From assembly GCF_000717055.1 (NCBI RefSeq), contig NZ_JNXI01000006.1, positions 238,409 to 302,408 of the forward strand: DNA of 64,000 nucleotides, in the 5' to 3' direction. Made by a program: the position numbers and the translations under genes. Below the pieces are notes generated by a model. The model did no database searches. It was not told where the DNA came from and saw only the letters and a list, made by a program, of their open reading frames with translations. The stretch is from Streptomyces iakyrus (lineage in GTDB: Bacteria; Actinomycetota; Actinomycetes; Streptomycetales; Streptomycetaceae). This document shows positions 12,494-42,312 of this stretch, in pieces (the stretch's first letter is position 1; every line of letters begins with the position of its first letter).

Positions 12494-12665
12494 TTACTGG
12501 CGGGCTGCGGAGAGCCGGCCGCTCATGATGGCCATGTAGACGCACTTCAAGGCGGCGGTCTCGTTCGGGAAGCACCCACGGGCCTTGACCGCCCGCCGGA
12601 TCCTGACGTTTCACGGACTCGATCGCGTTCGTGGTGCAGACGATGACGGCAGTGCCCGCCCGCGG
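12494..12665 (-). pseudogene. IS256/Mutator-family transposase remnant
   Basis: On the minus strand the piece reads AVIVCTTNAIESV, then after a frame break AVKARGCFPNETAAL and CVYMAIMSGRLS before a stop. This is the C-terminal signature of Mutator-type (IS256) transposases, split over two frames with some lost sequence. No N-terminal part or inverted repeats are visible, so it is a dead fragment. It lies just upstream of the heme A synthase gene and marks an old insertion point. Confidence 0.75.
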
Positions 12666-12749
12666 CGGGACCCTGTCCGGATCGGGCCGCCCTCCCTGAC
12701 CCGGCACATACGCTGGCGCCCGAAGCACCAGAGCACGGAAGGGACCGTC

Positions 12750-13730
12750 GTGCAGACACCACTCTCCTGGCTGGCGGGCCGGTACTCGCTCGGGCCGCGC
12801 AGCGTTCAACGGGCGGCGCTGGCCTCGGTCGTGGCCAGCATCGCCATCGTCGTCACCGGCGGCATCGTCCGCGTCACGGGCTCCGGCCTGGGCTGCCCGG
12901 AGTGGCCGACGTGCACGGGCAGCACCCTGGCACCGACGGCGGAGATGGGACTGCACGGTGTCATCGAGTTCGGCAACCGGCTGCTCACCGGTGTCCTGTG
13001 CGCCGTCGTGGGCTGGGTCATCATCACGGCCCGGCTGCAGCGCAACCCGATGCCGACGGTGCTGCGCGGCGCCTGGGCGCAGTTCTGGGTCGTCGTGCTG
13101 AACGCGGTGGTCGGAGGCATCACCGTCTGGATGCGGCTGAGCCCGTACATCGTCGCCGCCCACTTCCTCGCCGCGATGCTGCTGCTCACGACCGCGGTGA
13201 TCACCTGGTACCAGGCCCGCCGCCACGGGGAGACCGGGCCACCGCCGGCCGCGTTGCCGCCGTCCTGCCGTACCGCCTCCGCCGCCCTGCTCGCCGCGAA
13301 CGCCCTCCTGGTGGTCGTCGGCACCCTCGCCACCGGCTCCGGGCCGCATGCGGGCGACTCCTCCGACGTGCCCCGCATGCCCCTGGACTGGACGGTGGTG
13401 ACGATCGCCCACGGGCTGCTGGCCGCCGCGGTCCTGGGGGTCACGGGCTACCTGCTGTACGCCCTGCCCAGGGACGGCTTCGCCGAGGCCCGCCGCAAGA
13501 CGGTGTTCTTCCTGGCGGCCGTGCTGGCGCAGGGAGCCGTCGGGCTGGTGCAGTCACTGACCGGCCTGCCCGCACTGGCCGTCACCCTCCACCTCTTGGG
13601 ATCGGCGCTCGTCTGGGCCGGGGCCCTGCAGGTGTATCTCACGGTCGCGGCGGCATCTTCCAGCCAACCAGTGCCGGGCGACCAGACCGAAACGCGGCCC
13701 CGGCACCCCAGCACGACGCCCGCTCGATGA
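12750..13730 (+). CDS. ctaA: heme A synthase (COX15/CtaA family)
   Basis: A 326-aa integral membrane protein with about eight hydrophobic segments. It oxidises heme O to heme A for aa3-type cytochrome oxidase. GGIVRVTGSGLGCPEWPTCTGS near residue 30 carries the paired-cysteine CPxWPxC loop, and heme-ligand histidines lie in GLHGVIEFGNRLLTG, AAHFLAAML, IAHGLLAAAV and LHLLGSALVW. GTG 12750 was chosen because GGAAGGGACC precedes it. It stands alone next to an IS256 remnant, without ctaB or oxidase genes, so it may be an extra copy. The C-terminal 30 residues are Ser/Pro/Arg-rich and unlikely to be structured. Confidence 0.85.
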   Translation: MQTPLSWLAGRYSLGPRSVQRAALASVVASIAIVVTGGIVRVTGSGLGCPEWPTCTGSTLAPTAEMGLHGVIEFGNRLLTGVLCAVVGWVIITARLQRNPMPTVLRGAWAQFWVVVLNAVVGGITVWMRLSPYIVAAHFLAAMLLLTTAVITWYQARRHGETGPPPAALPPSCRTASAALLAANALLVVVGTLATGSGPHAGDSSDVPRMPLDWTVVTIAHGLLAAAVLGVTGYLLYALPRDGFAEARRKTVFFLAAVLAQGAVGLVQSLTGLPALAVTLHLLGSALVWAGALQVYLTVAAASSSQPVPGDQTETRPRHPSTTPAR

Positions 13731-13984: not shown

Positions 13985-14107
13985 ATGATCGAGAACGAGA
14001 TCGTTGAATACGAGGCGCCCGAGATGCTGCCCGTCGGCGAGTTCTCCGAACTCACCATGTGGTACGGCTGGGCCAGCAATGACGGTGAGGGCGTAGCCAT
14101 CATCTGA
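13985..14107 (+). CDS. lasso peptide precursor
   Basis: A 40-aa ORF. The leader (residues 1-25) carries the RRE-recognition pattern Y9-x2-P12-x-M14-x3-G18-x-F20-x3-T24, with Thr24 at the penultimate leader position where lasso leaders keep it. Cleavage after Met25 gives the 15-residue core WYGWASNDGEGVAII. Trp1 would supply the amine and Asp8 the side-chain carboxyl for an eight-residue macrolactam ring, leaving a seven-residue tail. AAAGAAAGGAG lies 8-13 bp before the ATG and the preceding 160 bp are relatively AT-rich. The next gene is the cyclase, 38 bp on. Trp1, Tyr2 and Trp4 are possible targets of the downstream aromatic prenyltransferase. Ring size and cut site are inferred from family rules. 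Confidence 0.88.
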   Translation: MIENEIVEYEAPEMLPVGEFSELTMWYGWASNDGEGVAII

Positions 14108-14145
14108 TAACGGCACATGTTATTCGGCCAGGAAAGGGGGACGCC

Positions 14146-16083
14146 GTGGGTGCGTCGTGGTTCGTCGCTTTCCCAGAAAACGTCGAAGGTGCATTCCCGG
14201 GTCTCGCTGGAATAGCCGATGACACCGCAGAACTGACTTATGCATCAGGCCGGACGTGGGTCGTCGCCGACGTCTCGCATGCGCGCCTGATCGTTGCGGA
14301 AGCCGGTGCCAGACGTCTCGCGCTCTTCGGAGAGACGGACGCCGAAGCGGGGCGTCTGGCACGCCTTCTCGACCGCCACGACGACGTCGACGGCCTCATG
14401 GCCGCGGCGCACGCCCTGGCGGGCAGCTTCCACGTCCTGTACACGGACGGCCGCTCCCTGTACGTCCAGGGCAGCGCGTCCGGCCTGCGCCAGGTGTACT
14501 ACGCCCAGCCGCGGGACACCGAGCCCTACGCGGTGTCCGACTCGGCGGAGATCCTGGCCCGGCTGGCCGGCAGCACCCCACGGATCGAGATGGTCGCCTG
14601 GGGCATGGTCCACCCCGGCTTCGACTACGGACTGACCGAGGGCACCTACTGGACCGGCGTGCGCCGGCTCCCCGCCGACCAGCGACTGCGCGTGACCGGC
14701 GACCGGATCGAGCGCTCCACCTGGTGGACGCCGCCGCCCTCGGACCTGCCGATCCGCGAAGGCGCTCCACGACTGAGGGCCGCGCTGGACGAGGCGGTCG
14801 CCGTCCGGGTCGCCACGGCCGACGGCCTGTCCGCGGACCTCTCCGGCGGCATGGACTCGACATCGCTCTGCTTCCTCATGGCCGAACAGGGCGCGCCCTT
14901 CCAGTCCTTCGTCGAGCAGACCATCGACCCGAACCACGACGACGCCCACTGGGCGGCCATCGCCGCCCGGGAGATCGGCCGTGACCTGACGGTCCTGCGG
15001 CCCGAGGACGTCCCCGGCCCGTACGACGGCATCTGGGACCCCGCCGAAGGACTGGTCCAGTCGGTGCCCTACGGGCTCGGCGAGCCGTACACCCTGATCC
15101 GCAACCGCACCCGGAAGATCGCCATGTCGCGGATCTTCGCGGACACCGGGGCCACCGTGCACATCGGCGGCTTCGGCGGCGACGAACTGTTCACGGTGGC
15201 GCCCTCCTACTTCAGCGACCTGTACGCGACATCCCCCCTCAAGGCCGTCCGCGGCATACGCGACCTGGCCCGGCTGCGCCGCTGGACCCTGCCGTCCGTG
15301 CTGCGCGCGCTGGCACGGCAGCAGTCGTACACCGGCTGGTTCGAGGAGCAGCTGCGCAGCCTGCACCTGCCCCGCCCGGACACCACCGGCCCGACCGTCG
15401 ACTGGGGGCCGCGGCTGCGGGTGACCCCCTGGTCCACGGGCGCGGGCGCCGAGGCGATCCGCTCGCTCGCCCACGCCGGGGACTCGGGCCGCACCCCACA
15501 GGCCCCCACCCGCTCGGTGCACACCTGCGTCGCCGGTCACCGCATCGGCGGCCAGCGGCTCGGCCCGCTGCGCGCGCTCATGCAGCACCAGGGCATCCTG
15601 CTGTCGCTTCCGTACATGGACGACAAGGTGCTCGAAGCCGCGCTGGCGATCTCCCGTGCGGAGGCGCAGCCGGGCCAAGGCTTCAAGCCCGCGCTCAAGG
15701 CCGCGATGCGGGTGGACGCATCCAAGACCGCGCTCTCCCGCTCCACCAAGGGCGAGTTCAGCATGTCGGTCCACCGCGGGCTGGCCCGCAACCGCAAGGC
15801 CCTCCTCGGCCTGTTCGAGGACTCGCTCCTCGCCGAGCACGGCTTGGTGGACATCGACCGGCTGCGGTCGACGATCCGGGACACCATGCGCCCGGAGTAC
15901 GAGACGAACGCCTTGGAACTGACCGTCGCCGCGGAGGCCTGGATGCGGGCCGTCGCCGAACACATCACGGCCCCGCGGCCGGTGACGGCCGGGGCGCCGG
16001 ACGCCCGGCCGGACGGGCCCCTCGCGGACGGGCCCCTCGCGAACGGACGACTCACGAACGGACGACTGGCTTTCCCATGCTGA
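14146..16083 (+). CDS. lasso peptide cyclase (asparagine synthetase-like, C protein)
   Basis: A 645-aa asparagine synthetase B homologue that activates the core Asp8 carboxyl as an adenylate and closes the macrolactam. The N-terminal glutaminase-like domain lacks the catalytic Cys2 (it begins GASWFVAF), as in lasso cyclases. The ATP-pyrophosphatase motif LSADLSGGMDSTSL is near residue 230, with IGGFGGDELF and the C-terminal SKTALSRSTKGEFS following. The GTG at 14146 has AGGAAAGGGGGAC upstream. The last 40 residues contain short tandem repeats (GPLADGPLANGRLTNGRL), probably slippage-generated and not structural. Its end overlaps the RRE gene by 7 bp. Confidence 0.92.
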   Translation: MGASWFVAFPENVEGAFPGLAGIADDTAELTYASGRTWVVADVSHARLIVAEAGARRLALFGETDAEAGRLARLLDRHDDVDGLMAAAHALAGSFHVLYTDGRSLYVQGSASGLRQVYYAQPRDTEPYAVSDSAEILARLAGSTPRIEMVAWGMVHPGFDYGLTEGTYWTGVRRLPADQRLRVTGDRIERSTWWTPPPSDLPIREGAPRLRAALDEAVAVRVATADGLSADLSGGMDSTSLCFLMAEQGAPFQSFVEQTIDPNHDDAHWAAIAAREIGRDLTVLRPEDVPGPYDGIWDPAEGLVQSVPYGLGEPYTLIRNRTRKIAMSRIFADTGATVHIGGFGGDELFTVAPSYFSDLYATSPLKAVRGIRDLARLRRWTLPSVLRALARQQSYTGWFEEQLRSLHLPRPDTTGPTVDWGPRLRVTPWSTGAGAEAIRSLAHAGDSGRTPQAPTRSVHTCVAGHRIGGQRLGPLRALMQHQGILLSLPYMDDKVLEAALAISRAEAQPGQGFKPALKAAMRVDASKTALSRSTKGEFSMSVHRGLARNRKALLGLFEDSLLAEHGLVDIDRLRSTIRDTMRPEYETNALELTVAAEAWMRAVAEHITAPRPVTAGAPDARPDGPLADGPLANGRLTNGRLAFPC

Positions 16084-16328
16084 CAATCTCTCCCCACGTG
16101 GTCCTCACCAAGGACGAGGACGCGGCCGTGCTGCTGGACAAGAAGTCCGGCACGTACTTCCGGCTCAACCCGATGGCCGTCACGGTCTTCGAGATGCTCT
16201 CCGCCGGGCAGTCCACGGCGGCCGTCGTGAGCGCGCTCCAGGCCCGGTACCCGAAGGCGGCGGACCGGATCCCGGACGACGTCCAGAAGCTGATCACCAC
16301 CATGCGGACTACGGGAGTACTGGTCTGA
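16077..16328 (+). CDS. lasso RiPP recognition element (PqqD-like B1 protein)
   Basis: An 83-aa PqqD-fold protein: two beta strands (HVVLTKDEDAAVLLDKKSGTYFRLN), a helix (MAVTVFEMLSAGQ) and a C-terminal helical pair ending TTMRTTGVLV. In lasso systems the B1 protein binds the leader through its YxxP motif and delivers the precursor to the B2 protease. It overlaps the cyclase end by 7 bp and ends 1 bp before the B2 ATG, so translation is coupled. Length and order A-C-B1-B2 match the usual actinobacterial arrangement. Confidence 0.9.
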   Translation: MLTISPHVVLTKDEDAAVLLDKKSGTYFRLNPMAVTVFEMLSAGQSTAAVVSALQARYPKAADRIPDDVQKLITTMRTTGVLV

Positions 16329-16329
16329 C

Positions 16330-16788
16330 ATGACACTGCCCATGACGCTGGAGCCGCGGACCCCGCTGCCCCTGCACAGAAGGCCGCTCCCACTGCTGGC
16401 GGTCGCGGCCGGCCGCCTCCTCATCACCCTGAGCCCGGCGAGGATGGAGTGGGCACTGCGGCGGCTGAGCCGCGGCGCCCGGCCCGCCACCCAGGCCGAG
16501 GCCCTGCGCGCACGCAGCGACGTCGTCTCGGTCAGCCGCCGGGCCGCCGGCCAGTACTGCCTGGAACGGTCGGTCGCGGCGGCGGTCCTGGCCCGCCTGC
16601 GAGGCAGCTGGCCGGACTGGGTTTCCGGCGTCAGCCTCATGCCCTTCGCGGCGCACGCCTGGATCGAGGTCGACGGGCGGCCGGTCGGCGAGTCACTGCG
16701 GCTCGACGCCTTCCAGAAGAACATCGTCATCTCCTGCCCCCACACAAGGCGGAGCCGAGCGAACCACCCCACCGGGAGGGGAAAGTGA
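16330..16788 (+). CDS. lasso leader peptidase (transglutaminase-like B2 protein)
   Basis: A 152-aa protein of the lasso B2 transglutaminase-like protease family, which cuts the leader off the precursor. The catalytic Cys is at residue 77 in GQYCLERSVAAA, and the His at 109 in FAAHAWIEVDG is followed by a GES segment. The N-terminal 40 residues are basic/hydrophobic and may associate with the membrane. The usual C-terminal aspartate region is short and ends in a basic RRSRANHPTGRGK tail. It starts 1 bp after the RRE stop. Its stop is followed directly by the oxygenase gene, showing that the tailoring genes belong to the operon. Confidence 0.88.
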   Translation: MTLPMTLEPRTPLPLHRRPLPLLAVAAGRLLITLSPARMEWALRRLSRGARPATQAEALRARSDVVSVSRRAAGQYCLERSVAAAVLARLRGSWPDWVSGVSLMPFAAHAWIEVDGRPVGESLRLDAFQKNIVISCPHTRRSRANHPTGRGK

Positions 16789-16790
16789 CC

Positions 16791-17690
16791 ATGGACCCCA
16801 AGAGCATCGCGGCAGAGCTGGCGACCAGGGGATACGCACTCGTCCCCGACTTCCTGACGGGCGATGCCCTGACCGAGGCCGTCGCGGCGATCGAGACGTA
16901 CTTCCCCGACCCCGAGGCCGACGACAGCACCGCGGACGACGTGGCCGCCCTCAAGCACGCGGTCCCGTTCCCCTTCACCAGCAACGCCCTCAACCGGCAC
17001 CCCCTCGATCTCCGCGTGATCAGCGTCGTCGAGGAACTGCTGGGCACCACCGACCTGCGCATGACGAGCTCGTTCATCCAGGCCAAGTACGGGACGGCGT
17101 ACGGCGAGAGCAAGGACCAGAGGCTGCACAACGATGCCTGGGCGGCGAGCAGCCTGGTGCACCCCCGCGCCGACGGCGTCTACCAGCGCGTGTACGGCAT
17201 CCTCTACCTGACCGACGTGACGGAGGACACCGCTCCGACCTACGTCGTCGACCGCGCCGCGCACCTCGGCGTTCCGCTGCTCACCCCCGAGGGCACCGGC
17301 GCCTACAGCAAGGAGGCGTACCCCGAGCTCTACGAGCGGGAGCGTCCCGTCGTGGCCGGCAAGGGTTCCCTGCTGCTGTTCGTGGGGGACATCGTCCACC
17401 GGGGCTCCGCCTACCACGAACACCTCGGCCGCCGACTCGCCCTGTTCTTCAACATCCACGGCGCGCAGGCCCGTTGGACGGACAAGCACCTGTGGTCGCT
17501 GCGCCCGGCGCACCCCGACTGGGGCACCTTCCGCGACCTGATGATCGAGCTGGAGCCGCGCCAGCGTCATCTGCTGGGCTTCCCGCCTCCCGGCGACGAT
17601 TACTGGACCGAAGAGACCATCAAGCACCTGTCGGAGATGTACCCGGGGATCGACGTCGAGCCCTACCTGCCGGCGCGCGTGGCCTCATGA
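16791..17690 (+). CDS. Fe(II)/2-oxoglutarate-dependent oxygenase (PhyH family)
   Basis: A 299-aa phytanoyl-CoA dioxygenase-like protein. The iron facial triad is visible as H113 and D115 (RLHNDAW) and H203 (GDIVHRGSAYH), and an Arg 12-13 residues later (LGRRLALFFN) can bind 2-oxoglutarate. It probably hydroxylates or oxidises the lasso peptide or its prenyl group; free amino acid hydroxylation is an alternative. ATG 16791 has GGGAGGGGAAAG upstream. Its TGA overlaps the ATG of the prenyltransferase (ATGA), so the two are translationally coupled and likely act on the same product. Confidence 0.85.
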   Translation: MDPKSIAAELATRGYALVPDFLTGDALTEAVAAIETYFPDPEADDSTADDVAALKHAVPFPFTSNALNRHPLDLRVISVVEELLGTTDLRMTSSFIQAKYGTAYGESKDQRLHNDAWAASSLVHPRADGVYQRVYGILYLTDVTEDTAPTYVVDRAAHLGVPLLTPEGTGAYSKEAYPELYERERPVVAGKGSLLLFVGDIVHRGSAYHEHLGRRLALFFNIHGAQARWTDKHLWSLRPAHPDWGTFRDLMIELEPRQRHLLGFPPPGDDYWTEETIKHLSEMYPGIDVEPYLPARVAS

Positions 17691-18820
17691 CCCCGGCTGC
17701 CAGGGCCCTGCCCGGCTACGCCGAGCAGGCGGTCGGCGGCCTCCGACACCTCGGGCAGGTCTTCGAACTGGGCCCAGCCTTCGACGCGTCCGCCGAGGAG
17801 ACCGTGTCGGTGCTCTTCGGCGGCTGGGGCCACCGCTCCACGCGCGGCCCCGCCGAGCCTGGGCAGCCCGGCGCGCCCGCCCCGTTCGAGTACTCGCTGG
17901 TGCTCAGCGGCGACCGCGTCGACGTCCGGCTCTTCTACCGGCCGCTGGCCGAGGCGGGTACGACGACCGCGGAGGCGAGCTGGGACGCGGGCCGGCACAC
18001 CCTCGCGGAACTCGAACGGCGAGGCCTCGCCCACCTGCACCGGGCCCGGGATCTCGGCGACCACTTCCGGCCCCGCAGCGGGCAGGCGTCGTTCGGCATG
18101 TGCCTGGCGGCGTCCACAGCGGCGCAGGGGATCGACCGTGTCAAGGTCTACTTCGACACCTTCGCGGCCGGCACCGGACAGCACCAGGAGCTGATCGGTC
18201 AGGCCCTCCACCGGCTCGGCCACGGCCCCGCGTGGGACTGGGTGCGACGGCACGACCCGGCGGGCGTCGCCGCCCTCATGCCGGCGGTCTTCGCGCTCGA
18301 CCTCCAGGAGTCCGCCGACGCCCGGGTCAAGTTCTACACCACGGTGCACGAGCGCTCCGCCGCCGAACTCGCCGCGCGGACATCGGCGTTGTCGGACGCG
18401 GCGGGCCGTGCCGCGGCGGACTTCGTGGAGCACATGGCCGTCGACGGATCGGCGGCGCTCGCGGGGGCCGGGCTGCGGCCGACCCTGTGCTGGAGCATGA
18501 CCTCGCGCCGGCCCGACCGCCCTGACGACGCCACGGTGTACCTCCCCAGCAACCACTACGCCCCGCGCCGTGAGGACATCACCGACCGTCTGCGCACCGC
18601 CCTCGCACCGGGCCTGTTCCGGCAGGTGGAGCGCCTGGTCGCCCAGTGCGCAGAGACCGCGCCTGCGGGCGGCCCGGAGAACCCCTTCCACTGGGTGGGG
18701 ACGAAACTCCTGCGGAAGGAGCAGACGTTCACTCTCTACATCTCGGCAGCCGCCGTGGAAGCCGCCCGCTCGGCCTTCCCCACACCGCTCGCCGCAGCGC
18801 CACATGCGAGGCCACGCTGA
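17687..18820 (+). CDS. DMATS-type aromatic prenyltransferase
   Basis: A 377-aa ABBA-fold aromatic prenyltransferase of the tryptophan dimethylallyltransferase type. The diphosphate-binding strand motifs are visible in order: RVKVYFDT (K-x-Y), ARVKFYTTV (R-x-K-x-Y), ATVYLPSNHYAPRREDI and FTLYIS, each with the Lys/Arg and Tyr that shield the allyl cation. There is no Mg-binding DDxxD. Bacterial members prenylate the indole of Trp or Trp-containing peptides with DMAPP. The last gene of the lasso operon, coupled to the oxygenase. A lasso core with Trp1, Tyr2 and Trp4, plus a mevalonate operon starting 0.6 kb downstream, makes peptide prenylation the leading hypothesis. Free Trp or another indole cannot be excluded. 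Confidence 0.8.
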   Translation: MTPAARALPGYAEQAVGGLRHLGQVFELGPAFDASAEETVSVLFGGWGHRSTRGPAEPGQPGAPAPFEYSLVLSGDRVDVRLFYRPLAEAGTTTAEASWDAGRHTLAELERRGLAHLHRARDLGDHFRPRSGQASFGMCLAASTAAQGIDRVKVYFDTFAAGTGQHQELIGQALHRLGHGPAWDWVRRHDPAGVAALMPAVFALDLQESADARVKFYTTVHERSAAELAARTSALSDAAGRAAADFVEHMAVDGSAALAGAGLRPTLCWSMTSRRPDRPDDATVYLPSNHYAPRREDITDRLRTALAPGLFRQVERLVAQCAETAPAGGPENPFHWVGTKLLRKEQTFTLYISAAAVEAARSAFPTPLAAAPHARPR

Positions 18821-19403: not shown

Positions 19404-20381
19404 TCACCAGCCGACCAGCGCGAGGCCGGCTGCCATGCCGCCGCCGAAGCCGGCCATGAGGATCAGGTCACCGGGGCGGATGCTGCCCGCGCGGGCAGCC
19501 GCGTCCAGGGTGAGGGGTATGGAGGCGGCTCCGGTGTTGCCGTAGTGCGTCAGCGTCCGGTGCAAGGTCGCCCCGGGCAGGCCGAGTTCGGCCATGACCT
19601 CGTCGAGCAGAACACCATTGGCCTGATGCGGGACGAAGTGGGCGATGTCGGCGGGCACGACGCCGGTCTCGTGGAGGAACTGCTTGACCAGCTGGGGCAA
19701 GTGCTCCTCGACGAATCGGCGTACCCCACGCCCGTCCATCGTGAAGTAGTGGAGACCGGAGTCGTGTGCCCGGGGGTCGCAGGAAAGACGGCTGCCGCCC
19801 GCGGGTACCCGGATCAGGTCCGAGAGCTCACCGAACGTGTGCAGGGCGATCTTCCGGATGCCGACGCCCTGACGTACCGGTCCCACGACCAGCGCACCGG
19901 CGCCGTCGCCGAACAGGACCACCGTTCGGCGGTCAGCCGGGTTGAGGATGCGCGAGTAGAGGTCGGCGCCGATGACCAGCGCGTGCCCTCCCGTTCTGGC
20001 CACCATGGCCTCGGCCGTGGAGAGGGCGAACACGGCGCCGGAACAGACGGCGTTGACGTCGAACGCCGCGGCGTGGGCCGCACCGAGGTTCTGCTGGACG
20101 TAGGCGGCTGTGGGCGGCTGCGGCCGGTCCGGCGTGGAGGTGGCGACCACGATCAGCGACAGCTGGCCGGCGGTGATGCCGGCCGACTTCAGTGCGCGCC
20201 GCGCCGCCGCGGTGGCCAGGTCCGAGGTGGCCTGGTCCGCGGCGGCCCAGCGACGCCGGCGGATAGCGGTCTTACGGGTGATCCAGGCGTCGTCGACACC
20301 GGCAGCCGCGCCGACTTCGTCGTTGGAGACGATCCGGTCCGGCACGTACGAACCGGTGCCCAGTATTCCGACGGCAGTCAT
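19404..20381 (-). CDS. nphT7: acetoacetyl-CoA synthase (NphT7-type KAS III)
   Basis: A 325-aa KAS III-fold enzyme closely resembling NphT7 of Streptomyces sp. CL190. It condenses acetyl-CoA with malonyl-CoA to acetoacetyl-CoA, driving the mevalonate pathway irreversibly. The catalytic Cys is in FDVNAVCSGAVFAL, His in HFVPHQANGVLLDE and Asn in THYGNTGAASIP. GADLYSRILNPADR and GFGGGMAAGLAL are NphT7-like. ATG 20381 was chosen from family length and GAAGAGAGGAC upstream. It is the distal gene of the mevalonate operon, the same position as in CL190. Confidence 0.93.
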   Translation of the reverse strand: MTAVGILGTGSYVPDRIVSNDEVGAAAGVDDAWITRKTAIRRRRWAAADQATSDLATAAARRALKSAGITAGQLSLIVVATSTPDRPQPPTAAYVQQNLGAAHAAAFDVNAVCSGAVFALSTAEAMVARTGGHALVIGADLYSRILNPADRRTVVLFGDGAGALVVGPVRQGVGIRKIALHTFGELSDLIRVPAGGSRLSCDPRAHDSGLHYFTMDGRGVRRFVEEHLPQLVKQFLHETGVVPADIAHFVPHQANGVLLDEVMAELGLPGATLHRTLTHYGNTGAASIPLTLDAAARAGSIRPGDLILMAGFGGGMAAGLALVGW

Positions 20382-20439
20382 GCGACTGTCCTCTCTTCGG
20401 AGTGGATGTGGATTCCGGGCCCGGGCAGGCCCTCTGCGC

Positions 20440-21615
20440 TCAGCGCACCTCGTAGATCCGCTTGTGGCGGGACAGCGCTGCCAGCCGGTAGGGTCCGCTG
20501 GTCTCCCGCGGCACGGGATGGTCGCCGCCGTCGGCCGGGAAGGACCGCTCGTGCAGTTCCCCGTAGCGCGCGTAGTCGACCGGCTTTCGCCGCGCGACTG
20601 CCTCCTGGTGCTCGGCGGTCCGCAGGTGCTCCCGGTAACCGGGCACAACAGTCCCCGCGAAGAACTCGGCGACGCTGCCGGATCCGTAGCTGATGAAGCC
20701 GATGGCCTTGTCCGTCAGGTCTTCCCCGTGGTCGAGCAGGGAGGCCAGGGCGAGGTACATCGACGCGGTGTAGCTGTTGCCCACGACCGTGTTGTAGGCC
20801 GTCGTGTGCCCGATGGCGCGGGTGATCTCAGCGGCGTCGGTGTCATGGCCGCAGACGTGCAGCAGGTGACGGTGGGCCTTGTAGGCCATCTTCGTGAAGG
20901 GCTGGTGGTAGCAGAACGCGCTGAACTCGCCCAGAGCGCGGCCGCCCTGCTCGATGTAGTCCTTCCAGCTGCCTTCCAGGGCCTGCAGATAGGCGTTGAT
21001 GGACTCGTGCCCGTCGACCAGCGCGGTGTCACGGTAGTTCGGCCGCCAGAAGTCCATGACGTCGGCGGTGTAGAGGCCCGAGGGGTCCTCTATGCGCACG
21101 AGTGCCGGGTCGGCGGCGATCAGCATGGCTACCGCGGCCGCGCCCTGGGTCGGCTCACCGGGACTGCCCAGGTCGTACTTCGAGACGTCACTCGCGATCA
21201 CGAGGACGCGCTGCGAGGGGTCGCGGCGGACGAGGCCCAGGGCGAACTGCAGCGCCGCCGTCCCGGCATAGCAGGCCTGCTTGATCTCGACGACGCGTGC
21301 GGAGGAGGGCAATCCGAGCAGTGAGTGAACGTACACACCAGCCGCCTTCGACTGGTCGATCGAGGTCTCCGTCGCGAAGACCACCGTCCTGATCTGATCG
21401 GTGCCGTGCCGGGCCGTGATGGGGGCGGCCGCGGCCGCCCCCATGGTGACGATGTCCTCGTCGGCCGCGGGCACGCTCATCGACTGTTGGCCGATCCCCA
21501 CGTGGTACTTGCCGATGTCGGTGCCGTCGTGGGCCGCCAGGGCCTGGTGCGTCAGGACGAACTCAGTCGTCGCGAACGATAGATCGTGTATTCCTATGGC
21601 AGCGTCTTGCGTCAT
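20440..21615 (-). CDS. mvaS: hydroxymethylglutaryl-CoA synthase
   Basis: A 391-aa thiolase-fold HMG-CoA synthase that joins acetyl-CoA and acetoacetyl-CoA. The nucleophilic Cys is in VVEIKQACYAGTAALQ, the general-base Glu in VVFATETSIDQSK and the His in CYHQPFTKMAYKAH. GNSYTASMYLALASLL is also conserved. Starts 3 bp after the HMG-CoA reductase stop, and is followed 58 bp on by nphT7. Order and spacing match the known Streptomyces mevalonate cluster. No anomalies seen. Confidence 0.95.
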   Translation of the reverse strand: MTQDAAIGIHDLSFATTEFVLTHQALAAHDGTDIGKYHVGIGQQSMSVPAADEDIVTMGAAAAAPITARHGTDQIRTVVFATETSIDQSKAAGVYVHSLLGLPSSARVVEIKQACYAGTAALQFALGLVRRDPSQRVLVIASDVSKYDLGSPGEPTQGAAAVAMLIAADPALVRIEDPSGLYTADVMDFWRPNYRDTALVDGHESINAYLQALEGSWKDYIEQGGRALGEFSAFCYHQPFTKMAYKAHRHLLHVCGHDTDAAEITRAIGHTTAYNTVVGNSYTASMYLALASLLDHGEDLTDKAIGFISYGSGSVAEFFAGTVVPGYREHLRTAEHQEAVARRKPVDYARYGELHERSFPADGGDHPVPRETSGPYRLAALSRHKRIYEVR

Positions 21616-21618
21616 GAC

Positions 21619-22680
21619 TCATACCCCGATCTGTTGCGTCTCGTTCTTGCGTTCCATCAGGACGTGCGCCCGCATGAGTTCGCCGGGATTCGTCTGTGCC
21701 GCCAGCAGCGACAGTTCGCCGCAGAGCACCGTGGCGGCGCAGATGGCGGCGAGCCGACGTGCGTTGCCGCCGGGCTCGCGCTCGTCCCGGCAGCCGAGCC
21801 GCGTCAGATTGGCCTCGACGAATCCGAGCCCCTTGCCGTTGCCGACGGTGCCGACGATCAGGTTGGGCAGCGTGCAGGAGAAGTAGAGGTCCCCGTCGCG
21901 GTCCTCCGCCACGGTCACACCCTGCGAGCCCTCGACGATGTTGGCCGCGTCCTGACCGGTCGCCAGGTAGAAGCCGAGCAGCATGTTCGCGTAATGCGCG
22001 TTTGCCGAACGGATGCCGCCGGCCAGGAGCGTCCCCAGCATGTTCTTGCGCACATTGAGCTCGGCGATCTTGGCGGCCGTGGTGTGCAGCATGTCCGTGA
22101 CCACGGCGCGTGGCACCAGTAGTTCGGTGACGACGTTCTTGCCGCGGCCCAGAATGCCGTTGATCGCGGTCGCCTTCTTGTCGGTGCAGTAGTTTCCCGA
22201 AATCGACCCGTACGAGATCCCCGGGATCGTCTGCAGGATGTGCGACAGCAGCGCGTCGGCGGCGAGCGTGGCCATGTTGTGCCCCGACGCGTCGCCGGTG
22301 CCGAACTCGAAGCGGATGAACAACAGGTTGCCCGTGATCTCGTGCCGGATACCGATCAGCTGGGCGAACCTGCTGCAGGTGCGCACGATCTTGTCGAACT
22401 CGTCGAACCGCTCGTCGAGCTGCCGGGTGGCCGCGTACGCGGTCTGCGCGTCCTCGGCCTCGACGAGGACCGAACGAGTCATCCGTTCGTCGACGAGCGT
22501 GGCGACGATGCCCTGCTCGGTCTGCCGGGAGATCTTCGCTCCGCGCCCCACGGAGGGCCACAGCGGCGACTCATAGGTGGCGAGCGGCACCTCGGTCTCG
22601 GTGGTGGCGACGTTCCCCGAAATCCTCAATGGCCCCACCCACGCCATCGGGACCCCTGCGATTTCCTGTGTGTTGTTCAC
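21619..22680 (-). CDS. mvaA: hydroxymethylglutaryl-CoA reductase (class I-type, soluble)
   Basis: A 353-aa HMG-CoA reductase making mevalonate, rate-limiting in the route. Signatures are PMAWVGPLRISG, the Glu region GAKISRQTEQG, KKATAINGILGRGKNVV with the catalytic Lys, and the NADPH loop RFEFGTGDASGHNMAT. A C-terminal catalytic His of the long eukaryotic type is not obvious in the last residues. GTG 22680 is preferred over longer frames because it overlaps the isomerase stop (GTGA), and 353 aa is the usual length in Streptomyces mevalonate clusters. Fourth-from-last gene of the operon. Confidence 0.93.
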   Translation of the reverse strand: MNNTQEIAGVPMAWVGPLRISGNVATTETEVPLATYESPLWPSVGRGAKISRQTEQGIVATLVDERMTRSVLVEAEDAQTAYAATRQLDERFDEFDKIVRTCSRFAQLIGIRHEITGNLLFIRFEFGTGDASGHNMATLAADALLSHILQTIPGISYGSISGNYCTDKKATAINGILGRGKNVVTELLVPRAVVTDMLHTTAAKIAELNVRKNMLGTLLAGGIRSANAHYANMLLGFYLATGQDAANIVEGSQGVTVAEDRDGDLYFSCTLPNLIVGTVGNGKGLGFVEANLTRLGCRDEREPGGNARRLAAICAATVLCGELSLLAAQTNPGELMRAHVLMERKNETQQIGV

Positions 22681-23768
22681 CGTATGCTTCCGATCGTCCG
22701 ATGAATGGTGTCGGGGGAGCCCGAACGCGTGGCCAGCCGGCCCGTCGCCACCCCCCGGTCCTCGCAGAACGAGCGCAGCGCGCCGTGGACCAGCACATCT
22801 TTGCTGGCCATCTCGGCCGGAGTCCGCGCCCCCAGCGCCGTCATCAGCGCCGCTATCTGGTCGAGCCACGTCGTCAGCTGCGCGACCAGCGCCTCGACGC
22901 CGTCGTCGACCACGGTCCGCAGGAACCGCCCGGATGCCCCGGCGGCGACCGCGCCGAGCGCCAGGGAACGAACGACGTCGAGCGGGTCGCGCACACCGCC
23001 GGAGGCGAGCAGCGGGATCCCCGCGCCGCCCGCGTCGAGCAGACAGGCGGGAGTGGACTGTCCCCAGCCGTCGAGGAACGCGTAGTCGGCGAGCTCGCGC
23101 CTGCCGTTCTCGATACGCGCGAAGTTCGTGCCTCCGCTGCCGCCGACATCGGCCACGGCCACGCCGGACTTCTCCAGCAGCGCGACGGTTTCGCGGCTCA
23201 GACCGAATCCGACCTCCTTCACCACCACCGGAACGCCGACAGCCGCCACGATCTCCTCGATCCGCCGCCCCCAGGAGGCAAACGATCGGTCGCCCTCCGG
23301 CATCACTGTTTCCTGGATGGTGTTGACGTGGATCTGCAGGGCGTCGGCCCGCACCAGGTCGATGGCCCGCCGCGCGTTGTCGACCGAGGTCGTGGCGTTG
23401 ATGTTCGCCATGATGAACCCATCCGGGTTCTCCCTGCGCATCACACTGAACGTCTCCGCCGTGTCCGGGTTCTTGAAGTACGGGCTCACGGACCCCGTCG
23501 CGATGGGCACGCCCGTCTCGCGGGCGGCGATGGCCAGGTTCCGGTTGATGGCTCCGGTCATCTCACTGCCGCCGGTCATGGCGTTGATGTACAGCGGTAC
23601 CTGCCATTCGATGCCGGCGAAGCTCGTGGCCAGCGACACATCGGAGCGATCGACGCCCGCCAGGGCGTGGTGGACGAAGGACACGTCGTCGAACTGGTTG
23701 TGTCCGCTGTGCCCGTGTTGCTGCTTCACAGCGAGCCGGACGTGGTCGTCCTTGCGTTCAGCGCTCAT
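22677..23768 (-). CDS. fni: type 2 isopentenyl-diphosphate delta-isomerase
   Basis: A 363-aa FMN- and NADPH-dependent IPP isomerase of the Fni/IDI-2 family, interconverting IPP and DMAPP. It begins RKDDHVRLAV, then shows LYINAMTGGSEMTGAIN, QIHVNTIQETVMPEGDRSF (the conserved Gln/Glu pair), VVKEVGFGLS and DVGGSGGTNFARIENGR. This enzyme sets the DMAPP supply for both prenyltransferases in the window. It overlaps the phosphomevalonate kinase start region by 11 bp and the reductase start by 4 bp, so the operon is tightly coupled. Confidence 0.95.
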   Translation of the reverse strand: MSAERKDDHVRLAVKQQHGHSGHNQFDDVSFVHHALAGVDRSDVSLATSFAGIEWQVPLYINAMTGGSEMTGAINRNLAIAARETGVPIATGSVSPYFKNPDTAETFSVMRRENPDGFIMANINATTSVDNARRAIDLVRADALQIHVNTIQETVMPEGDRSFASWGRRIEEIVAAVGVPVVVKEVGFGLSRETVALLEKSGVAVADVGGSGGTNFARIENGRRELADYAFLDGWGQSTPACLLDAGGAGIPLLASGGVRDPLDVVRSLALGAVAAGASGRFLRTVVDDGVEALVAQLTTWLDQIAALMTALGARTPAEMASKDVLVHGALRSFCEDRGVATGRLATRSGSPDTIHRTIGSIR

Positions 23769-24882
23769 CGCTCATGTTCCTTTCGTCGGCGGGGGCAAGC
23801 TCCAGGGGCACCACGTCGGCAGCGGCCCACCGCGCCCGCATCTGTGAGATGTCCTTCTGCGCACCGGCGTCCAGCAGCGCGATGCCGCAGTCGCCCCCTC
23901 CGGCGCCGGAAGGCTTGGCCGCACCGCCGACGGCTTCGGCGGCGTCGCACAGCACCGTCAGCTTGTCCGTGAAGATGCCGAGTCCGGTCTCGTCGTCCAG
24001 CCGGGTCAGCACTTGCCGGGCGCACCTGATCTGGTGGAGCAGCTCCCGGTGATCCGCTCGCTCAAGCGCCTGGACGCAAGCGCGCACAACGGCGGTGGAG
24101 CGGGTCAGGAAGTCCCGGTACCCCGCGCCGTCCGCCCCGCCGCCGGTGTCCAGGCGCGACACCAGCGATCCGGTGGAGACCGGCTCCCCGGTCCAGCCGA
24201 CCTCCAGGGTGAGCCCGCGGGGCGGGGGCAGACGGCGCAGTCCGAAGCCCGGCCACGGCGCGCGCAGCACCTCCTCGATGCCGCGCCGCCGGGCCAGTTC
24301 GAGCACGGCGAGGCGGTCGGGTGCCTGGTAGGCGATCCAGCCGCCCCAGGTGCTGGCGGCGAGATCACCGCCGGAGGACTTGGCGTCGAGCCTCGCTGTC
24401 GCCAGCATGGCCAGCCGGAAGCGTGCCTCGGGGGTGAGGTCCAGGCCGCAGTAGTCGGTGACGGCGGCGATCGTCGCCACCGTCACCGCACCGCTCGATC
24501 CCAGACCGTACTTCGTTCCCCCGGTGTGAAGGCCGCTGCTGACCGAGATGCGCAGGGCGGGGGGAGTCAGCCCGCGCTCGGTCAGCAGACCGTCCATCAC
24601 GTCGATCGCCGACACCACGTGGGCAAGGCTGGTGCGCGCGCGTTGCTCGTCGTCCGCATCGAACGCGGTGAGCCCGTCCCGGGTGCGGCGCAGGCGCGCC
24701 CCTTGCGGGCACAGGTCGGAGGTGACGGTGACGTCGCCCGAACCGGCACCGGCCACGGTGACACCGACCTGCCGGTCGACCGCCACCAGGATGGCCGGGG
24801 TGCCCGGTTGCACCACCGCGTACTCACCGGCGACGAACAGCTTGCCCGGTGCGTGCCGCACGACCGGTCCACGGTGCGTCAT
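23758..24882 (-). CDS. mvaK2: phosphomevalonate kinase
   Basis: A 374-aa GHMP kinase that converts 5-phosphomevalonate to 5-diphosphomevalonate. The N-terminal APGKLFVAGEYAVVQPG is the phosphomevalonate kinase form of GHMP motif 1. Motif 2 is KYGLGSSGAVTVATIAA and motif 3 KPSGAGGGDCGIALLD near the C-terminus. It lies between the decarboxylase (4-bp overlap upstream) and fni (overlap downstream). Length and order are as in Streptomyces CL190. Confidence 0.93.
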   Translation of the reverse strand: MTHRGPVVRHAPGKLFVAGEYAVVQPGTPAILVAVDRQVGVTVAGAGSGDVTVTSDLCPQGARLRRTRDGLTAFDADDEQRARTSLAHVVSAIDVMDGLLTERGLTPPALRISVSSGLHTGGTKYGLGSSGAVTVATIAAVTDYCGLDLTPEARFRLAMLATARLDAKSSGGDLAASTWGGWIAYQAPDRLAVLELARRRGIEEVLRAPWPGFGLRRLPPPRGLTLEVGWTGEPVSTGSLVSRLDTGGGADGAGYRDFLTRSTAVVRACVQALERADHRELLHQIRCARQVLTRLDDETGLGIFTDKLTVLCDAAEAVGGAAKPSGAGGGDCGIALLDAGAQKDISQMRARWAAADVVPLELAPADERNMSDER

Positions 24883-25922
24883 CGGCCGTCCTCGGTCCGC
24901 AGGCAGGCGCCGGGTCCGCGCCGGGCGATGTACGTCCGCGACGCCACGGAGCGGAGTGTCCGCGCCACCCGGTCCGCGTCCGCGCCTGCGCAGAGGACCT
25001 TGACGTTCGGGCCGGCGTCCATGGTCGCGTAGGCGGCGACACCGTCCTGTCTGAGCCGGAGAACGCTGTCGAGCACGGCGAGGGTGGCCGGTGCCATGTA
25101 ACGCACCGCCGGACGGGCCGCCAGCATCGTGGCGTGCATGCCCAGCGCGTTCCGCTCGGCGATCTCCCCCACCGCCTCCAGGTCGCCCCGGAGCAGCGCC
25201 GCCCTCATCTCGGTGAGGTCGGCCCTGCTCGACTCGACCCAGGGCCGGTAGAGCGGTGAGGTCTCGACGGTCCGCCGCATACCCACCCGGCTGGACACGG
25301 CTTTGGGGCCCGCGTCGACGATCGCGATCACCAGCGCGGCGTCGAGATCCCCGACGGGGAGCGGCTCGGCGTACGAGCTCAGGTCCGCGTCAGCTCCCGT
25401 TCCCCGGCCGGCGTGCCAGAGGGCGAAGCCGCCGAAGATCGAGCGCGAGGCCGACCCCGAGCCCCGACGGGCCAGGCGTGAGAGCTCGGTGGCGTCGAGC
25501 CGCAGGCCGTACGCGGCCGTAGCGGCGACGGCCAGAGCGGCGAATCCGCTGGCCGAGGATGCGAGACCCGCTCCGGTGGGGACGGTGTTGCGGGTGTCCA
25601 CTACGGCCCGTTCGGCCCGGCGGGCCCGCTCTCGTACCAGGTCCAGGAAAGCGGTGACCCGCCGGTACGGCTCGTCGGCCGCCGGGGTGTCGTTGAGGGT
25701 CACCTGGTCCGCCGCGGCCTCGGGTGCCAGCCGGACGGTGGTGGTGGTGGAGAAGACGTCCAGGGTCATCGACAGGCTGTCGGACGCGGGCAGGATGAGG
25801 TGGTCGTCACGCTTGCCCCAGTACTTGATCAGCGCGATGTTCGGATGGGCGACCGCGGTGGCGTGCCCTGCGGCAGGCCGCTCGTGCGGACTGTTCGGGG
25901 CGGCCGGGTGGTCAAGGCGCAT
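24879..25922 (-). CDS. mvaD: diphosphomevalonate decarboxylase
   Basis: A 347-aa GHMP-superfamily enzyme giving IPP by ATP-dependent decarboxylation. Signatures are ATAVAHPNIALIKYWGKRD at the start (KYWGKR is diagnostic), SASGFAALAVAATAAYG, the SRLARRGSGSASRSIFGGF loop and a C-terminal ATMDAGPNVKVLC with the catalytic Asp. It overlaps the mevalonate kinase end by 11 bp and the phosphomevalonate kinase start by 4 bp. No defects seen. Confidence 0.95.
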   Translation of the reverse strand: MRLDHPAAPNSPHERPAAGHATAVAHPNIALIKYWGKRDDHLILPASDSLSMTLDVFSTTTTVRLAPEAAADQVTLNDTPAADEPYRRVTAFLDLVRERARRAERAVVDTRNTVPTGAGLASSASGFAALAVAATAAYGLRLDATELSRLARRGSGSASRSIFGGFALWHAGRGTGADADLSSYAEPLPVGDLDAALVIAIVDAGPKAVSSRVGMRRTVETSPLYRPWVESSRADLTEMRAALLRGDLEAVGEIAERNALGMHATMLAARPAVRYMAPATLAVLDSVLRLRQDGVAAYATMDAGPNVKVLCAGADADRVARTLRSVASRTYIARRGPGACLRTEDGR

Positions 25923-26928
25923 GGCTGGCGAACCTTCCGAGTGGCACGGCCCAGGTCTGCGACGCTCCTGCCGCGTGCAGCCGTCGTGTGATCTCTCGCC
26001 CCTGCTCCGGCTCGCGGGCCAGGGCGATCATGCAGCCCCCCAGGCCGCCGCCAGTGATCTTGGCCCCGGGGCTGCCCGCCGCGAGCGCGGCGTCTACCAA
26101 GGCGTCGATCCGGCCGGTGCTGAGGCCCGCGGTGCTGAGCAGCTCGTGGTAGTCCGTCAGCCGCTTGCCGAAGTCGTCCACGCGGCCGTCCGCGAGGTCA
26201 CCTACGGCTGTGCGGGTCAGCTTCGAGGCACGGCGTACAAACGTCTCCTGCGAACCGGGAACGCGCTGGAACCCGCCGCGCAGCAATTCGACCGCGTCCT
26301 TCGTGCTGCCGAACTCGCCGCTGTCCGCGATGATGACGAAGCCCTCGCCGACGGCTCCCATCCGCAGTTCCCGCACGGTTTCCGCGGTGAACTGGAGCGG
26401 GAAGGACGCGCCGGTGGCGACCACGTCGACACCGCTCGCCTTGCCGTGAGCGACGTTCTCGGCGGTCTGCACCAGGTCGAACACCGCGTCCGCGTCGAGT
26501 TCGCGGCCGAAGAGCTGGGCGACAGCCAGGATGACCGCCCGCCCGCACGCCGCGCTGGAACCGAGTCCGCGGCCGGACGGGATCGCGCAGTCGACGATCA
26601 CATCGAGATGAGGGCACTCGGCGACGTCCGTTGTCTTCTTGAACTCGGTCACGAGCCGCTGAAGGCCGTCGGCGGCCTGTGTCACCACGGGTCCCGACGC
26701 GGATCCGGTCATCGTGAAGGAGACGTCACCCGCGTCGGCGGGGGCGTGCGACGACCACCCGGCACTCGCCGTGACAGCCAGCTGCGGAACGGGCAGAGCC
26801 AGTGCCGGTGCCCCGTAGAGGACCGCGTGCTCGCCCAGCAGAATGGCCTTCCCGTGGGCACGCCCAATACCGACTGAGCGGCTTCGGCGGTTGTCCGGCA
26901 CTCCCTCTGCCGAAGTCGGTAGAGTCAA
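25912..26928 (-). CDS. mvaK1: mevalonate kinase
   Basis: About 338 aa; a GHMP kinase phosphorylating mevalonate. Motif 1 is GKAILLGEHAVLYGAPALAL, motif 2 IPSGRGLGSSAACGRA and motif 3 KITGGGLGGCMIAL. It is first in the mevalonate operon. The start is uncertain: similarity to CL190 kinase extends to ELSALTLPTSAEGV, yet no ATG or GTG is in frame before it. TTG 26928, with GGGAG about 9 bp upstream, is my choice; GTG 26901 is possible. An ATG with better spacing to AGGA (26951-26949 region) is out of frame, so the start may have drifted or a small indel may exist. Confidence 0.9.
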   Translation of the reverse strand: MTLPTSAEGVPDNRRSRSVGIGRAHGKAILLGEHAVLYGAPALALPVPQLAVTASAGWSSHAPADAGDVSFTMTGSASGPVVTQAADGLQRLVTEFKKTTDVAECPHLDVIVDCAIPSGRGLGSSAACGRAVILAVAQLFGRELDADAVFDLVQTAENVAHGKASGVDVVATGASFPLQFTAETVRELRMGAVGEGFVIIADSGEFGSTKDAVELLRGGFQRVPGSQETFVRRASKLTRTAVGDLADGRVDDFGKRLTDYHELLSTAGLSTGRIDALVDAALAAGSPGAKITGGGLGGCMIALAREPEQGREITRRLHAAGASQTWAVPLGRFASHAP

Positions 26929-27108
26929 CGCGCTCAACTCCCATTGTCGTTTTCCTGTGTGGGTGCATCGCCCCCCGACTGGGACGACGACACCCGCGTC
27001 ACACCGCTGGAGCGGGTCGGGTTCGGTGACTGCGAGGTGCGCAGGGGCAGCGGCGAGAAGCACCGGATGATCGGGCACAAGAAGGAGCCATCCGGCGATC
27101 GCGGAGCC

Positions 27109-39461: not shown

Positions 39462-41444
39462 TCAGCGGTCTCGGTAGGCCACCTGCTCCGCCATCTTGCC
39501 CAGGCGCTGCTGCCAGTCGTCCGCCAGCGGCGCCGTGTCGAGTGCTGCGCGGGCGGTCGCGACGAGCTGGTCGATCTGCTGCTCGACGTCCCGGCGTACG
39601 CCGGAGGCGAGCAGCGCCGCGCGCAGCTCGGCCGCGTCCCAGTGGCCCTTCTTGCCGTCCGCCACCAGGCGAGCCACCCGGGAGTCCTTGGCGGCCGCCA
39701 GAGCGAGCAGCAAGGTCATCTTGTGTTCACTGACGTCCAGACCGGCCGGCTTGCCGGTCGCGGCGGAATCACCGAACGCGTCGAGCAGGTCGTCGCGCAA
39801 CTGGAACGCCTCGCCGGCCGCGACGCCGTACTCCTCGAAGGGCGCCTGCAGTCCGGGCCGCCCGGCGATGGACGCGCCGAGGGCCAGGGGGCGGTGGATG
39901 GTGTAGCGGCCGGACTTGCAGACCGCGACCCACCGGGCCAGGTCCGGGTCCGGCGACAGCTCGGCGGCCAGAGCGATGTCCAGCTGCTGGCCGATGATCA
40001 TTTCGGTGACCAGTTCCGTCCAGATCTCCATCGCCGGGGCGGGCAGCCCGCTGGTGAGGCGGCCGGCGTAGCTGAGTGCCAGGTCACCGGCCAGGAGGGC
40101 GACGCCCTCCCCGTACCGGCGGGCCTCGCCGACCCAGCCGCGCTCCGCATGCACGCGGGCGTGGTGGGCGTGCACGGTCGGGACTCCGCGCCGGGTGGGC
40201 GAGTTGTCCATGATGTCGTCGTGGATCAGGGCGAAGACGTGCAGCAGTTCCAGTGCGGCTGCCGCCGCGACGACCGTGTCGTCGTCCGCCGAGCCGCCGG
40301 CCGCCAGATAGCCGCTGATGCAGAACGTGGGACGCAGCAGCTTGCCGCCCGCCCCGACGAGTTCCGCGATCGCCTCGACCGGCACCGCCACGCGGGCATC
40401 GACGGCCGCCCAGCGTGACATCTCGGCGCTCAGCAGGTCCTGGATGCGGGCGTCGACCCGGGCGAGCAACTCGGCGCAGGCATCGTCGCCGGTTGCCGCG
40501 GGCCCCGGCCGCTCCAGCTCCGGCGGCATCCTGAACACGACGTTCTCGACGGCCGTCACCTCGGTTTCGATGTCGCGGAACCCGAGGGTCGCGAGCCGTT
40601 CGAGGACCTGCTCCACCAGCACCTCGGGCACGCTCGCCCCGGCGCTCAGCCCCAGGGTGCGGACGTCCTTCAGCCAGTCGGAGTCCAGGTGGTCCACGTC
40701 GGGCAGCAGCCGGGCCTGTGCTCCGGCGGCCTGGGCGACCTCCACCATCCGGACCGAGTTGCTGGAGTCGGGCGACCCGACGATGAGCACCAGGTCGCTG
40801 CGTCCGGCGATCGCCTTCACCGCGTTCTGCCGGTTCTGGCTGGCGTAGCAGATGTCCTCGCTGCCCGGACCGGTTATCCCGGGGAACCGCTCGGTGAGGA
40901 TGGACACGATCTCGGCCGTGTCGTCCACCGACAGCGTCGTCTGGGTGAGATACGCGGCGGACGTTCCCGGCGGCAGGTCGAGCCGCCTGGCGTCCTCCGC
41001 GTTCTCCACGATGACCGTACGGTCCGGCGCCTCCCCGTAGGTGCCCTCGACCTCCTCGTGATCGGCGTGTCCGATGAGGATCAGCGTCTGCTTGTCGCGG
41101 GCGAACCGGCGGGCCTCCTGATGCACCTTGGCGACGAGCGGGCAGGTCGCGTCGATGACCTTGAGGCCGCGCTGCTCGGCGTTGCTGCGTACCTGCGGTG
41201 ACACGCCGTGCGCGGAGAAGACGCACACCGCCCCGTTCGGCACGTCGGTCTCCGAGTCGACGAACCTGGCACCCATCGTCTCGAGGTGGCGCACCACGTG
41301 TTCGTTGTGCACGATCTGCTTGCGTACGTAGACGGGCGCGCCGTGCATCTCGAGCGCGCGTTCCACGATGTCGATGGCCCTGTGCACACCGGCACAGGAG
41401 CCACGCGGCTCGGCGAGCAGGATTCGGCGTGGGGTGGACGGCAT
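39462..41444 (-). CDS. HMBPP reductase (IspH) fused to polyprenyl diphosphate synthase
   Basis: A 660-aa natural fusion. Residues 1 to about 315 are IspH/LytB: cluster cysteines in RGSCAGVHRA, IDATCPLV and EDICYASQNRQ, histidines in HNEHVVRHL and HADHEE, and SPDSSNSVRM. Residues about 330-660 are a trans-prenyltransferase with first Asp-rich motif HDDIMDNSPTRRG and second QLRDDLLDAFGD. Phe lies five residues before the first motif, which fits a short-chain (C15-C20) product, though this is a weak predictor. IspH makes IPP/DMAPP from HMBPP and the second domain extends them, so the fusion may channel substrate. All catalytic residues I can check are intact. Upstream is a degenerate dxs/ispG piece. 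Confidence 0.92.
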   Translation of the reverse strand: MPSTPRRILLAEPRGSCAGVHRAIDIVERALEMHGAPVYVRKQIVHNEHVVRHLETMGARFVDSETDVPNGAVCVFSAHGVSPQVRSNAEQRGLKVIDATCPLVAKVHQEARRFARDKQTLILIGHADHEEVEGTYGEAPDRTVIVENAEDARRLDLPPGTSAAYLTQTTLSVDDTAEIVSILTERFPGITGPGSEDICYASQNRQNAVKAIAGRSDLVLIVGSPDSSNSVRMVEVAQAAGAQARLLPDVDHLDSDWLKDVRTLGLSAGASVPEVLVEQVLERLATLGFRDIETEVTAVENVVFRMPPELERPGPAATGDDACAELLARVDARIQDLLSAEMSRWAAVDARVAVPVEAIAELVGAGGKLLRPTFCISGYLAAGGSADDDTVVAAAAALELLHVFALIHDDIMDNSPTRRGVPTVHAHHARVHAERGWVGEARRYGEGVALLAGDLALSYAGRLTSGLPAPAMEIWTELVTEMIIGQQLDIALAAELSPDPDLARWVAVCKSGRYTIHRPLALGASIAGRPGLQAPFEEYGVAAGEAFQLRDDLLDAFGDSAATGKPAGLDVSEHKMTLLLALAAAKDSRVARLVADGKKGHWDAAELRAALLASGVRRDVEQQIDQLVATARAALDTAPLADDWQQRLGKMAEQVAYRDR

Positions 41445-41453
41445 GTTTTCCCC

Positions 41454-42312
41454 TCAGGTCGCTTTGGACGGAATGTCATCGCTGCCGAGGGGGTCGATCC
41501 CCATCTCCCCGGCGATTCGCATGGCCTCTTCGATCAGCGTTTCGGCGATCTTCGATTCCGGTACGGTCTTGACGACCTTCCCCCGGACGAAGATCTGGCC
41601 CTTGCCGTTGCCCGACGCCACACCCAGGTCCGCCTCACGGGCCTCCCCGGGCCCGTTGACGACGCACCCCATGACCGCCACGCGCAGCGGCGCGGGAAAG
41701 CCGGACAGTGCCGCGTTGACCTCGTCGGCCAGTTTGTAGACGTCGACCTGGGCGCGGCCGCAGGAGGGGCAGGAGACGATCTCCGGCCCCCGTTTTCGCA
41801 GATCGAGCGACTCCAGGATCTGGAGGCCGACCTTCACCTCCTCCGCGGGCGGGGCGGAGAGCGAGACCCGGATGGTGTCGCCGATGCCCTCGCTCAGCAG
41901 GGCGCCGAAGGCGACGGCGGACTTGATGGTGCCCTGGAAGGCCGGGCCGGCCTCGGTGACGCCGAGGCGCAGCGGCGTTCAGCGCTTCCCACGCCATGCC
42001 GCCGGTCAGCGCGCCGTCCCCGACGACGGCCACCACGCACCCGTCGAGGTCGAGCAGCCGGCGGGCCTTCGCGAGCTTGTGCACGTTCGTCTGATGACCC
42101 GTGTCGAAGAGAAGCCGGTCCCGAGGGGACTCGAAAACTCGATGGAGCGCGATGGTCAGCTCGACGACTCCCAGGTTCGGGCCGATGTGTCCGCCGGTCT
42201 TGGAGACTGCGCTCACCAAAAAGTCACGGATTTCGGCTGCCAGGACCGGCAACTGCGAGGGCGCCAGCGACCGTAGGTCTTCCGGACTATGGATCTTCTC
42301 TAGCAATTCCAT
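41454..42312 (-). pseudogene. chimeric remnant: dxs N-terminus joined out of frame to ispG C-terminus
   Basis: From 42312 the minus strand encodes a DXS start ([49 protein letters not shown]). It then jumps to [20 protein letters not shown], missing about 50 residues, and reaches [11 protein letters not shown] near 41985. There it joins an IspG C-terminal half in another frame (LRLGVTEAG to SDDIPSKAT, stop 41454), which keeps the cluster motifs SCPSCGR and [12 protein letters not shown]. Two deletions and a frame change show decay of a former dxs-ispG-ispH alternative MEP module. An internal ATG near 41837 could still yield a 127-aa IspG fragment that is unlikely to be functional. Confidence 0.85.

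Follow-up and report, generated by a model that had tools for sequence, protein, structure and literature searches.

A six-gene operon at positions 13985-18820 of the + strand of the window (the whole 64,000-nucleotide stretch of Streptomyces iakyrus DNA that was analysed) was assigned from its sequence, with a probability of about 0.95, to collinodin (wygwalassin-type) biosynthesis, as the collinodin operon or a near-identical allele, identity being compared through the oxygenase only. The predicted product is most likely an oxidised, prenylated lasso peptide. The system is most likely already known, being practically the same as the published and structurally studied collinodin.

The six genes were arranged in the order A-C-B1-B2-Fe/2OG oxygenase-DMATS, neighbouring genes overlapping or lying 1-38 bp apart, and followed a COX15-CtaA gene (12585-13730; PF02628, 95.8 bits) in a host genome of 9.13 Mb (181 contigs):

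13985-14107 (+): lasso precursor A, 40 aa, with leader MIENEIVEYEAPEMLPVGEFSELTM and core WYGWASNDGEGVAII; lasso leader model NF033521, 20.9 bits (cut-off 19)
14146-16083 (+): lasso cyclase C (asparagine-synthetase-like), 645 aa, GTG start; Asn_synthase PF00733, 96.4 bits (cut-off 21)
16077-16328 (+): B1, PqqD-like leader-binding protein, 83 aa, overlapping C; lasso PqqD model NF033530, 73.3 bits (cut-off 70)
16330-16788 (+): B2 leader peptidase, transglutaminase-like, 152 aa; lasso B2 model NF033537, 97.6 bits (cut-off 33)
16791-17690 (+): Fe(II)/2OG oxygenase, ColD orthologue, 299 aa; PhyH PF05721, 35.7 bits (cut-off 22)
17687-18820 (+): DMATS-type tryptophan prenyltransferase, 377 aa, its gene overlapping that of the oxygenase by ATGA; Trp_DMAT PF11991, 29.9 bits (cut-off 25)

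Coordinates and family matches agreed with the complete, tightly coupled A-C-B1-B2 order continuing into the oxygenase and prenyltransferase that the earlier note had described. The gene types of a lasso operon (asparagine-synthetase-like C, PqqD-like B1 and transglutaminase-like B2) were all found. Cyclase C scored under the NCBIfam cut-offs (218.7 vs 300 for macrolactam cyclase, 40.8 vs 525 for lasso cyclase), and its best NCBIfam model was the albusnodin/ikarugamycin macrolactam cyclase. The six-gene operon left no space for a transporter gene within it.

Precursor A displayed the YxxP...G...T leader and the core Asp8 of a lasso precursor; its leader matched YxxPxMxxxGx5T, with Thr at position -2 before the core. 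An eight-residue macrolactam ring closed between Trp1 and Asp8 is predicted to be possible for WYGWASNDGEGVAII, placing Trp1, Tyr2 and Trp4 inside the ring as previously proposed. Glu10 as acceptor would give a ring of ten residues, exceeding the 7-9 residues of known lasso rings. Computed masses were 1636.7522 for the linear core, 1618.7416 for the lasso, 1686.8042 for the lasso with one C5H8 and 1684.7886 for the lasso with C5H8 and two hydrogens fewer; the earlier values of 1618.74 (lasso) and 1686.80 (with C5H8) were thereby reproduced.

Oxygenase residues H113-x-D115, H203 and R215, which we take to be the iron triad (HxD...H) and the 2OG-binding Arg, were invariant in all 27 sequences aligned. 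Over its full length, the protein was identical to PDB entries 8XP6 and 8XPF at 295 of 299 positions (counted on the alignment), so that four residues differ; the comparison with the collinodin cluster covered the oxygenase. These entries are titled "2OG-Fe(II) oxygenase-ColD" and "ColD in complex with collinodins". The title of the collinodin paper (Shi et al., ACS Catal. 2025), as cited in the available parts of a lasso review and of a prenylation paper, names oxidative and prenylation modifications; by title on one side and by genes on the other, collinodin and the window's operon are both tied to oxidation and prenylation.

Prior description had been suspected from the name wygwalassin, and the near identity of the oxygenase to ColD bears this suspicion out for the collinodin record. 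Wygwalassin, reportedly described by Harris et al. (Biochemistry, 2024), is said to carry 5-dimethylallyl-Trp and 2,3-didehydro-Tyr. Its name spells W-Y-G-W-A, the start of the window's core, a likeness by name alone. In the literature searched, neither the name "wygwalassin" nor the phrase "prenylated lasso" was matched, and the title of Harris et al. 2024 was found there as a citation in four papers. In the parts of the texts available, PMC12615548 treats the chlorinated lasso peptide of Harris et al. and holds no word beginning with "prenyl", while PMC13290415 mentions "lasso" nowhere but among its references (Harris et al.).

In the proposed biosynthesis, B1 would present the leader, B2 would cleave it off after Thr-Met, and C would link the Trp1 amine to the Asp8 side chain around the tail, yielding the lasso; these roles of B1, B2 and C are established for lasso operons. 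The Fe/2OG oxygenase would then oxidise the lasso peptide, probably at Tyr2, and the DMATS enzyme would add a dimethylallyl group to a ring tryptophan (Trp1 or Trp4), probably at the indole C5, although ties in the fold ranking keep it from deciding the site.

The prenyltransferase combined a Trp_DMAT domain with an ABBA fold, as expected of a DMATS-type enzyme. The K-x-Y and R-x-K-x-Y motifs noticed earlier were located at K153/Y155 and R213/K215/Y217, and were invariant in all 21 sequences aligned. Its score against NCBIfam TIGR03429 was 43.6 bits, under a cut-off of 163.85 that is a naming threshold rather than a defining trait, and by sequence the enzyme is a divergent branch. A 5-dimethylallyltryptophan synthase headed the fold matches, level with other bacterial indole prenyltransferases, and the neighbours in sequence and fold were tryptophan or indole prenyltransferases. 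The S. coelicolor 5-dimethylallyltryptophan synthase, presumably encoded outside any lasso operon, shared 24% identity with the window's enzyme. According to their title, the corresponding structures (PDB 6ZRZ, 6ZS0) contain Trp together with a prenyl donor analogue.

Since the solved structures nearest to it in fold and sequence are, by their entry titles, mostly prenyltransferases of free Trp or small indoles, the enzyme could act on such a substrate and owe its place in the operon to accident. This appears very improbable, as its gene overlaps that of the oxygenase (ATGA), its position is kept in the complete operons of two other strains, and lasso prenylation is in print. In the available parts of the sources, prenylation of lasso peptides is reported as leader-independent, and a 2026 review (PMC13352647) includes Trp prenylation among lasso modifications and gives it as confirmed to come after the interlocked form is made. 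The earlier statement that lasso prenylation was not established is outdated in view of the collinodin paper, the ColD structures (one with collinodins) and this review, as far as their accessible parts go. Gene content, near-identity of the oxygenase to ColD and published lasso prenylation, the latter from the same partial sources, fit the reading of the product as an oxidised, prenylated lasso peptide. Prenylation raises peptide lipophilicity, and the ability of an enzyme to prenylate a peptide that is already folded and interlocked is useful for biocatalysis, as already argued in print.

A genome scan with the DMATS query, from which records closely related to the host genome may be missing, returned four loci (L002-L005). 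The whole operon was found in the same order, after a ctaA gene, in Streptomyces sp. yr375 (L002) and S. katrae NRRL B-16271 (L004). Eight distinct precursors (from the window, L002, L004 and P0069-P0073, the last five known as precursor sequences alone) carried three near-identical cores, WYGWASNDGEGVAII in five, WYGWASNDGEGTAII in two and WYGWASDDGEGVAII in one. The three cores varied at two positions, and no precursor had more than one substitution in its core (n = 8, the window's included). Since the operon recurs in order in yr375 and S. katrae and the core in eight precursors, the arrangement is not a product of chance.

The core is rare. Among 392 genomes from the genus, a degenerate core pattern was detected in two, that of the window and that of yr375; in an overlapping family sample of 394 genomes, it was detected in one, again that of the window. 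At E <= 1e-15, the DMATS matched four of the 392 genus genomes: the same two, plus two with distant matches at 28% identity. The protein search for DMATS, scoring only the 7994 candidates with most shared words, gave 21 hits (P0001, which is the cluster of the window itself, then 19 with identities of 50-89% and a remote one with 30%), and that for the oxygenase gave 47. Distant DMATS relatives also occurred in L007 and L008 (26-29% identity), whose short flanks, totalling about 3.8 kb, gave no match to the other queries, and in one plasmid record (26.8% identity). L006 and L010 fell within L002 (DNA identical to Streptomyces sp. yr375). This survey is the small addition made here: set against enzymes that diverge (close prenyltransferase relatives down to 50% identity), the nearly invariant core suggests a conserved target or a conserved enzyme-substrate fit.

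Two Streptantibioticus species carried what look like decayed copies of this operon. In Streptantibioticus rubrisoli (L003, 8469-11026), matches to the first 15 residues of A, to residues 10-509 of C and to DMATS from residue 22 abutted end to end, as though two segments had been deleted, and B1, B2 and the oxygenase gave no match. In S. ferralitis (L005, 10001-10549), DMATS residues 178-360 were matched and none of the remaining queries was.

Downstream of the lasso operon, from a distance of 0.6 kb, lay seven mevalonate-type genes:

19404-27078 (-): KASIII (presumably of the NphT7 kind), HMGS, HMGR, an FMN-dependent enzyme read as type 2 IPP isomerase (IDI2), two GHMP kinases (PMK, MVK) and diphosphomevalonate decarboxylase (MVD)

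Such proximity would suit a single functional cluster in which the mevalonate pathway feeds the lasso prenyltransferase. This is improbable: the mevalonate genes point towards the lasso operon from the opposite strand and continue into a set of phenazine genes that has an Orf2-type prenyltransferase of its own, and HMGS, HMGR, IDI2, PMK, MVD and MVK had no match at E <= 1e-4 in L002, L003 or L004 (about 10, 10 and 4.4 kb downstream of DMATS, respectively). It is likewise unlikely that this strain holds one prenylation island, with mevalonate supplying DMATS or with the Orf2-type and DMATS enzymes exchanging substrates. A role of the mevalonate genes as dedicated lasso prenyl supply was set aside, given the prenyltransferase of the phenazine genes and the lack of a match to six of the seven in the available flanks of three relatives. 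KASIII matches at 29-38% identity (four in L002, one each in L003 and L006) and matches to the isochorismatase-type ORF 29028 at 31-32% (L002, L003, L006) were disregarded, the comparison having been run without composition correction or low-complexity filtering. The longest KASIII match, which lies upstream of ctaA in L002 and has 29% identity across 343 residues, may represent a different KASIII-like gene; the rest were short.

The segment 19404-41444 (-) looks like a prenylated phenazine cluster, separate from the lasso operon; after the mevalonate genes it encoded PhzE-type, isochorismatase, class II DAHP synthase, PhzA/B, PhzG-like and PhzF proteins, and it also included an FAD monooxygenase and the Orf2-type aromatic prenyltransferase. 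At 39462-41444 (-), a 660-aa protein joined an IspH (LytB) domain to a polyprenyl synthetase domain, a fusion of the last MEP step with chain elongation that is, to our knowledge, unusual. Next to it (41454-42312, -), the start of dxs (DXS N-terminus) was joined, in a different frame, to the end of ispG (GcpE PF04551, 215.3 bits, profile positions 191-340 of 343), probably because a former MEP mini-operon has lost an internal segment. Further on (44880-46526, -), a 549-aa protein showed partial matches to the squalene-hopene-cyclase/prenyltransferase toroid.
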